From positions 1-64,000 of the forward strand of contig CALHQW010000017.1 in assembly GCA_938040315.1 (NCBI GenBank): 64,000 bases of DNA, written 5' to 3'. Under the pieces are notes generated by a model, which had not been told where the DNA came from, made no database searches, and saw only the letters and a list, made by a program, of their open reading frames with translations. Below are positions 41,221 to 43,329 of this stretch, piece by piece. The DNA comes from an uncultured bacterium (GTDB lineage Bacteria > Hydrothermota > Tepidihabitantia > Tepidihabitantales > DTDR01). Position 1 is the stretch's first letter. Every line of letters begins with the position of its first letter. A program made the translations under genes and the position numbers.

Positions 41221-41241
41221 TGAAATTGAAATTCATTTTCA
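41221..41241 (-). promoter_or_regulatory. Fur box in the fur-feo promoter
   Basis: A 21-bp near-palindrome with arms TGAAATTGAA and TTCATTTTCA around one central base (9 of 10 pairs match). It agrees with the classic 21-bp Fur box at 16 positions. It begins 2 bp past the -10 box and covers the expected +1, so bound Fur would block its own operon. Confidence 0.82.
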
Positions 41242-41242
41242 A

Positions 41243-41270
41243 AATATAACAAAAATCTAATAAAAGTCAA
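41243..41270 (-). promoter_or_regulatory. predicted fur-feoAAB promoter
   Basis: Minus strand: TTGACT (41270-41265), a 16-bp spacer and TATATT (41248-41243). The leader to ATG 41213 is about 23 nt. A near-identical copy of this promoter occurs at 43194-43221. Confidence 0.75.
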
Positions 41271-41338
41271 ACTTAAATCCTATTTTCATAAGCAAGTTTA
41301 AGACCTTTGGACAGTTTAAATTTCTTATAAAAAATCTC

Positions 41339-41366
41339 TTGACTTTTTGGAAATTTTATTTATTAT
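41339..41366 (+). promoter_or_regulatory. predicted promoter of the NucS-like nuclease gene
   Basis: TTGACT (41339-41344), a 16-bp spacer and TATTAT (41361-41366). Two overlapping TATAAT words follow (41364, 41372), so the exact -10 is uncertain. Confidence 0.6.
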
Positions 41367-41372
41367 AATTAT

Positions 41373-41520
41373 TATAATATTTGTTCTTTGGAAATTGCGG
41401 AAGGTACTTTTTATTGGGCATCAGAGAATAAAAAAGGCGGTTGAAGGGAAAAAGGCTCTACCCTTCTTTCGCAATAAATAATTAGGAGCCAAAACATAAA
41501 TAAAAAAGGAGGTGATTTAA
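41373..41520 (+). promoter_or_regulatory. long structured 5' leader with boxA-like element
   Basis: A leader of about 150 nt. A boxA-like TGTTCTTTGG starts at 41382. TTGCG-GAAGG (41395-41404) can pair with CCTTC (41462-41466) and CGCAA (41470-41474). GAAGGG (41443-41448) competes for the same CCCTTC (41461-41466); its 12-nt loop holds GGCTC (41454-41458), complementary to GAGCC (41486-41490), giving a possible H-type pseudoknot. The strong ribosome site AAGGAGGTGA is at 41507-41516. It matches no riboswitch class I know. Confidence 0.5.
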
Positions 41521-42489
41521 ATGGCTTATTTAATGAAAATATCTACAAGATTTTTAGGAGAACAAACTTATTTTAAGCGAGAAGCCGATTTGGAAAATTT
41601 TATTTTAACTCATCCACTCATTTTATCATCCTCAGAAGATGCTCCTGAAAATCTTGTTCCAGTTTATATCATTGGGCGGCAAGAAAAATTACCAAATAAT
41701 GACGGGATTATGGATTTAATTTGTTTAATTTGGAATCCTGATTTAGGAAAGTATCAAATTTGGGTATATGAGTTAAAAGTATATTCACAAAATTCTAATG
41801 ATGTTCAGCAACTTATTAACTATCTGAGAGCGATCGACGAAAATCAGGAGTATAGGAATGATCTCATCCAGAGAGCAGCAAATTTTGTAAAAGAATTTTT
41901 GGATAATAATATTAGAGGAGCTCTTTGTGCACAGGCCTTTTCTGATGAAGTGGTAAAAGGAATAATTGATGAAAATTTAAACCGCTCGTATGAAAAAAAA
42001 TTACTTGCTGTTAAGATATATCTTTTTCCAGTAGATAATGATATGTTTGCTTTGATTGAACCGTTCATAGGTGAAGAGAGAACTACCACAGGAGGAAGGC
42101 GTGCTACTCATTATGATGATATTCCTGATTTATCAGACTTTGAGTTAGAAGAAGAATTATTTAGAATTCTGTCAAATAGAAAAAAGACCCATCCCCAAAG
42201 ATTTGAGCAACTTAAAGCATTTTTAGAGTTATTTGTTAGTAACCCTAAGCGCAGTGTAAATCAAAAAGAATTGAGGGAAGAGTGGCAAAATAGAGGTCTT
42301 CCCAAAGAAGACAGGGGTCTGTCAGTTTCGCAGGTGTTGGGCTATAAAAATAATGGTGCACTACGAAAAATTTTGGAGTGGGATGTTATCCCACCGGATA
42401 TAAAAGATAACTATAGATTAAAAGATGAAAGATATGCAGAAGTTCTTAGAAATGTGCTTAATAGAATAAGTAAACAGCAGATAACATAG
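41521..42489 (+). CDS. PD-(D/E)XK nuclease, NucS/DUF91-like, with C-terminal helical domain
   Basis: 322 residues. The N-terminal half follows the NucS/EndoMS nuclease pattern: acidic helix EADLENFILTHPLIL, VYIIGRQEKLP (about 49-59), catalytic-type Asp 65 in GIMDLICL, E84-x-K86 in VYELKVYS, then a Gln in VQQLINYL. The C-terminal part (about 215-320; VNQKELREEWQNRGLPKEDRGLSVSQVLGYKNNGALRKIL) looks like a helix-turn-helix DNA-binding module. The N-terminal beta domain and PCNA contacts of true NucS are absent, so a defence or repair nuclease is possible. It stands alone, and its leader is unlike any other in the window. Confidence 0.72.
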   Translation: MAYLMKISTRFLGEQTYFKREADLENFILTHPLILSSSEDAPENLVPVYIIGRQEKLPNNDGIMDLICLIWNPDLGKYQIWVYELKVYSQNSNDVQQLINYLRAIDENQEYRNDLIQRAANFVKEFLDNNIRGALCAQAFSDEVVKGIIDENLNRSYEKKLLAVKIYLFPVDNDMFALIEPFIGEERTTTGGRRATHYDDIPDLSDFELEEELFRILSNRKKTHPQRFEQLKAFLELFVSNPKRSVNQKELREEWQNRGLPKEDRGLSVSQVLGYKNNGALRKILEWDVIPPDIKDNYRLKDERYAEVLRNVLNRISKQQIT

Positions 42490-43193
42490 CCTATACGCTT
42501 TGAATTGATATCTTTGTTCTTTGGGATAGTGCTTTTTATTTGACCACAATGGTGCATAAGTTAGAGCCGTTAAATGATATTTTATTTAACAAATTGAATA
42601 AAAAATTGGTTCGTCACTAGAAAGGGGAGTGAAAAATTTAAAAGGCATTTCCATAAATTCATATAATATTGTAATTTTCTCCTTTATAATCTTTTCAAAA
42701 GGGACTATATTATGATGAATTTATTATATTTCTTTCCAAAAATAAAATAAAAATAGGATTTTGAAAATGGCAAAAGGAGATAAATAGGAAGAAGGGAGCA
42801 ATGCCCTCTAGGGCTACCAACGACAAAAAATAATCGGCGACAAACCTTTTTATAAATAAGCGACTTTTCTATTTTTAAAAAATGCGAGCATCTTATTTTT
42901 TTAATAAGTGATTGCCGCTTTTAATAAAGAAAGGAAAACGCCATTTATTATAAGATTTTCAATTATTTTTAATGGGAAAGGAATAAACTTTATAAAAAGG
43001 AATTATATTGAGATCTTTACCATTTTATATCGTTTAATGAGAAGGAGTGGATATATAATCGCAAACGCAACTTCTTCTTGTAGTACCGATCATTCTGATA
43101 TCTATTTATATCTATTTAATCAAGATTAACGGAAACAGCACTCTACTGATAATATTTCTATCCGATCCAAAAAATTATCCAATTTATTTTTAA

Positions 43194-43221
43194 AATATAA
43201 AAAAATCCAATAAAAAGTCAA
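43194..43221 (-). promoter_or_regulatory. orphan promoter, copy of the fur promoter
   Basis: Minus strand: TTGACT (43221-43216), a 16-bp spacer and TATATT (43199-43194), within about 37 bp almost identical to the fur promoter (41241-41277 against 43192-43228). It has no Fur box. It points into 700 gene-free bases; downstream only very short frames exist, e.g. 18 codons from a TTG soon after the -10 (ending in SVECCFR). Confidence 0.5.
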
Positions 43222-43291
43222 ACTTAAAAAATAAATGGTACAAAAATTGATTTTATATTAAATAAGAAAATATGAATTTAGCAAAGAAATT

Positions 43292-43329
43292 TGTAAAAAT
43301 TATTACCCATTGTAAAAATTATTGCTCAT
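43292..43329 (+). repeat. 19-bp tandem repeat before the C25-like gene
   Basis: Two units of tgtaaaaattattNcNcat (43292-43310 and 43311-43329) differ at two positions. Part of the second unit can fold with the ribosome site of the next gene. Confidence 0.65.

Follow-up and report, generated by a model that had tools for sequence, protein, structure and literature searches.

A boxA leader of the rRNA and CRISPR type on a NucS-like nuclease gene from a lineage of candidate phylum WOR-3

In the 64,000-nt stretch of bacterial DNA analysed here (the window, to which positions refer unless a contig is named), the gene of a NucS-like nuclease is preceded by an untranslated leader of about 145-150 nt (predicted start near 41373-41377, ATG at 41521). 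What does such a leader do on the mRNA of an accessory nuclease? The preliminary description of the locus saw a boxA-like element at the start of the leader and, further down, two mutually exclusive stems and an H-type pseudoknot that would together form an RNA switch. All its motif coordinates proved correct when the sequence was re-checked (TGTTCTTTGG at 41382-41391, GAAGG at 41400-41404, GAAGGG at 41443-41448, GGCTC at 41454-41458, CCCTTC at 41461-41466 and GAGCC at 41486-41490). The features of the locus are collected in Table 1.

Table 1 Features of the nuclease locus, in window coordinates
Feature	Position	Strand	Basis and remarks
Predicted promoter, -35 TTGACT	41339..41344	+	Consensus scan; TTGAC-boxA spacing as at the rRNA, CRISPR and G014 sites
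Predicted promoter, -10 TATTAT	41361..41366	+	Consensus scan; alternative TATAAT at 41364-41369
boxA TTTGTTCTTTGG	41380..41391	+	Site shared with 16S and 23S leaders of the own and related genomes
Segment alignable to the own 16S rRNA promoter-leader	41327..41410	+	Spans the promoter, boxA and the stretch that follows boxA
Stem A, 5' arm ATTGCGGAAGG	41394..41404	+	Partner 41462-41475; predicted probability ~0.006
Hairpin B, GAAGGG/CCCTTC	41443..41466	+	12-nt loop including GGCTC; predicted probability ~0.99
Possible pseudoknot, GGCTC (41454-41458) with GAGCC (41486-41490)	41454..41490	+	Complementarity in the sequence, without comparative support
Strong ribosome site AGGAGGTGA	41507..41515	+	Sequence; 115 nt downstream of boxA
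NucS-like nuclease ORF, 322 aa	41521..42489	+	Profile match to NucS 2vld; catalytic residues
Second boxA-like element, TTTGTTCTTTGG then GTGCTTTTTATT	42513..42540	+	24 nt past the nuclease stop codon; suggestive

The element at the start of the leader was rightly called boxA-like: element and promoter jointly match the 16S rRNA leader of the same organism. The similarity extends over about 84 nt, that is, the promoter and roughly the first 35 nt of the transcript, and reaches a local alignment score of 43; the null, 56 other gene upstream regions of the window, averaged 14.6 and did not exceed 23. Another null was set aside because it contained a tile overlapping the leader's own promoter (probably its top value, 36). 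Used as a query against the own genome, the leader returned one clear second match (G000:C32:11879-11928, E = 4.8e-6), which is the 16S rRNA promoter and leader; the 23S rRNA gene is missing from the assembly and the comparison within the genome is made with the 16S leader. The 18-mer TTTGTTCTTTGRAAATTG, which has one ambiguous base, is found exactly in the nuclease leader and the 16S leader and nowhere else in 1.49 Mb, for an expected count of about 0.0007 from base composition, and the boxA of the nuclease leader is far beyond chance. A third exact copy of TTTGTTCTTTGG in this genome (G000:C3) lies antisense inside an ORF and was taken as a chance occurrence. Given the start predicted from the promoter, boxA would be among the very first nucleotides of the nuclease RNA, as it is in rRNA operon leaders, where it serves NusB-NusE antitermination. 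The nuclease transcript differs from these in coding for a protein and, past about 41410, in having nothing alignable to rRNA leaders.

Like rRNA operons, the nuclease transcript may also carry a second boxA-like element further down, shortly after the stop codon. The pattern GTTCTTTGN{4,16}GTNCTTT, which was derived from the sites themselves, occurs three times in the own genome (the 16S leader, the nuclease leader and this element) and its reversed control does not occur. In a plain alignment, the similarity between the second boxA region and the first copy remained within background. The idea that a decayed second nuclease gene lies behind this element was rejected, as no translated similarity was found.

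The promoter-boxA unit is reused in relatives from the genus or the order. It is present in the 16S leaders of both congeners (G001 and G002) and in the 23S leaders of G002 and G006, the last of which has the GTTCTTTGGAAA variant identical to that of the nuclease leader. A search of eight related genomes also found boxA sites outside rRNA in G001, G002, G010, G014 and G006; when one mismatch was allowed, counts came near those of the reversed-pattern control, so that only exact matches or those with promoter or gene context deserve trust. A TTGAC lies 40-48 nt upstream of boxA at the nuclease, at the 16S (own, G001, G002) and 23S (G002, G006) leaders, at both CRISPR-type sites and at the G014 site. 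In the nuclease leader, whose start site is predicted, it stands 42 nt upstream of TTGTTCTTTG, with the same spacing as at the rRNA and CRISPR sites. TTGAC is missing upstream of boxA at cas1 (G010), at an AAA ATPase gene (G006) and at those one-mismatch chance matches that were displayed and correctly oriented. Both the shared sequence of the unit and its recurrence at rRNA, CRISPR and mRNA sites of relatives are directly observed.

Outside rRNA, the unit is followed in G001 (C5, L108, 1430-1970) by a CRISPR array with the 29-nt repeat GTTCACCTTGATTAAAAAAGGATTGCGAC in five copies and a degenerate one. In G002 (C19, L126, 390-760), it is followed by noncoding DNA with a single repeat-like remnant, CCCTGATTAAAAAGGGATT, and the region looks like a decayed CRISPR locus or leader. 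The G010 site (C1, L107, 1501-2848) lies within a cas gene cluster, about 50 nt 5' of cas1, which cas2 follows, and lacks a TTGAC of its own. In G014 (C43, L106, 1458-1577), a terminator-like hairpin, AATTTACTAGTCAGTAGTAAATTTTTG, directly follows the unit and precedes a lipoprotein-like ORF for which no Pfam match was found. Finally, an AAA ATPase gene (461 aa) in G006 (C22, L128, 1440-1566) has a leader in which a terminator-like hairpin of high stability (GAGGCGGA...TCCGCCTCTTTTTTT, z = -5.16) encloses boxA, TTGCTCTTTGGAAAATTTGG, in its loop, just 5' of the ribosome site. For boxA-linked attenuation, this AAA ATPase leader makes a better candidate than that of the nuclease.

The nuclease locus itself has a restricted distribution. 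The leader and the gene are lineage-specific and probably an insertion, because the congener G002 has the same ORF downstream of fur but lacks the nuclease and holds a single copy of a 48-nt sequence that, in the window, flanks the nuclease insert as a direct repeat (41230-41277 and 43181-43228, 83%) and carries the fur promoter. Two further repeats were observed in the vicinity. At 43291-43328, two tandem copies of the 19-nt unit TTGTAAAAATTATTACCCA lie just 5' of an ORF of 1108 aa and are also found in G002. A noncoding element of about 330 nt (42653-42998) has four copies in the own genome (the others in L060, L061 and L062) which are 65-73% alike over longer alignments; each copy begins with the promoter-like CTATATTAT, and GGGAGCGATACCCTGTAGGGCTACC is common to all. 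The window copy has no Rfam match and the element is a possible small-RNA family or dispersed repeat.

The label NucS-like given to the protein holds: a profile of three sequences matches the NucS catalytic domain (2vld, E = 8.3e-7), and D65, E84, K86, Q97 and Y101 are invariant across the three. The likeness to archaeal NucS/EndoMS lies in this catalytic domain, with its D, ELK, Q and Y residues. Contrary to NucS, the nuclease domain is N-terminal here (residues ~16-107), with a C-terminal part of another kind behind it. From its sequence, the protein is thus NucS-like rather than NucS. No NucS N-terminal domain was found ahead of the nuclease domain, and the single sequence reached 15.5 bits against the NucS model, whose cut-off is 216. 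Of 147 genomes from the phylum, the nuclease was detected in 3, one of them its own, and the two relatives share 23 and 27% identity with it. Genome contigs yielded one homologue, a WOR-3 protein that is apparently the same as the match in G130; viral contigs, phages and plasmids yielded none.

How may the leader act? On rRNA, loading of NusB-S10 at boxA lets RNA polymerase resist Rho. Precedents outside rRNA come from CRISPR arrays, whose transcription boxA raises in Legionella constructs (PMC7862264), and from the boxA control of suhB and of a ParE-like toxin gene (PMC5725501). The explanation that we favor, with a probability of about 0.6, is that the nuclease mRNA carries an rRNA/CRISPR-type boxA leader where NusB-S10 is recruited, either to make transcription resistant to Rho or to exert a control that depends on Nus factors. 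The RNA would start near 41375 and expose boxA in its first nucleotides; NusB-S10 (NusE) would bind it and, as happens on rRNA, associate with the polymerase during elongation along with other Nus factors. So modified, the polymerase would then resist Rho across the untranslated leader of about 145 nt and on into the untranslated region 3' of the gene, perhaps aided by the second boxA-like element, and a Nus-dependent tuning of nuclease output is possible. The steps from Nus binding on, Rho resistance included, and any consequence for the nuclease are inferred.

Several other scenarios may explain the leader. The gene could simply have captured an rRNA promoter by duplication and gained strong expression, boxA being a passenger without effect on the mRNA. 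This is unlikely, but deserves to be taken seriously, as the similarity covers promoter and boxA jointly and the nuclease gene is lineage-specific. Nevertheless, boxA was kept between the nuclease and 16S leaders though their flanks diverged, a second boxA-like element lies 3' of the gene and the unit recurs at a CRISPR array and at another mRNA. Alternatively, Nus factors at boxA could reduce translation of the nuclease and promote early termination by Rho. There is a precedent for such repression in protein-coding mRNAs with boxA in the 5' untranslated region: boxA represses E. coli suhB through a translation block and controls a ParE-like toxin gene of Citrobacter koseri, CKO_00699 (PMC5725501). 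The latter is, like the nuclease, an accessory and potentially harmful gene, albeit of another protein family, and an overproduced nuclease could be costly. Yet in suhB, whose product is a Nus factor and not a nuclease, 6 nt separate boxA and the ribosome site, and the other candidates, CKO_00699 among them, were sought within 50 bp of the start, a criterion that would exclude the nuclease leader (PMC5725501). Since the corresponding distance is 115 nt here, a suhB-style block seems, by analogy, less likely for the nuclease and the rRNA/CRISPR mode a better guess; repression of this type is improbable. A third scenario takes the leader for a fossil: the nuclease would have replaced or entered a CRISPR locus and retained its leader. 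The array of G001 lies behind the same promoter-boxA unit, its leader scoring 35 against that of the nuclease, with an apparently decayed counterpart in G002. However, the nuclease leader resembles the own 16S leader more closely (42 against 35) and the G001 repeat, sought in 41390-43180, scored at background level (best 12, null up to 15), so a CRISPR array remnant at the locus was rejected and a CRISPR ancestry of the leader is very improbable.

As for the switch of the preliminary description, a novel riboswitch-like RNA that would control the nuclease through two exclusive stems and a pseudoknot near the ribosome site, the elements are there but little speaks for the regulation. The segments are complementary, as had been said, and stem A is even longer than the GAAGG pairing first noticed, since ATTGCGGAAGG pairs with CCTTC-TTT-CGCAAT in 11 bp with a 3-nt bulge; bulged 6+5 stems resembling it arose in 28 of 400 shuffles. 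The two stems are not in balance, though: computed pairing gives hairpin B ~0.99 and stem A ~0.006, on which a balanced switch between them was rejected. Hairpin B probably forms as an ordinary leader structure in the computed fold. The GGCTC and GAGCC of the pseudoknot are present, and the exact arrangement of hairpin, alternative arm and pseudoknot recurred in just 2 of 3000 dinucleotide shuffles, for a pattern set post hoc (hairpin and alternative arm alone: 57 of 3000). The folding energy of the whole leader is ordinary compared with shuffles (z = -1.12 and -1.07). The leader has no Rfam match at gathering score, and a lax search gave a chance match to Histone3 (E = 0.27, 17.2 of 34 bits). 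The leader is known from one species, no homologous leaders for covariation were found in the searched collections, and the genes of the two nuclease relatives start about 20 and 9 nt after another gene and hence have no leader; this comes near to what the preliminary description had named as refuting the switch, in proteins too distant to decide. The proposed switch is without evolutionary support, and a riboswitch, rejected on the Rfam result, the ordinary folding energy and the lack of homologous leaders, is scarcely credible. A variant would make boxA itself the switch. In the predicted fold of the leader boxA is paired with CAGAGAAUAAA, and this pairing could mask it after the RNA is released, a point against the favored explanation; if boxA either bound NusB-S10 or paired with CAGAGAAUAAA, the choice could set the state of hairpin and pseudoknot and hence the nuclease output. 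This is a long shot but, if true, such a Nus-dependent switch would tie a nuclease to the capacity for rRNA synthesis.

The favored explanation, a boxA leader acting through Nus factors, extends a known theme. boxA on genes other than rRNA is already known from suhB, the ParE-like toxin gene and CRISPR arrays, and the nuclease leader adds to that class. To our knowledge, boxA control outside rRNA has been shown mainly in gamma-proteobacteria. Here, a lineage of candidate phylum WOR-3 has one promoter-boxA unit at rRNA genes and a CRISPR array as well as at an accessory nuclease gene and one further mRNA, and a TTGAC about 40-48 nt upstream of boxA offers a simple search rule for more such sites. 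The presence of the unit at several sites suggests a broader Nus-factor control of defence-type and accessory genes.
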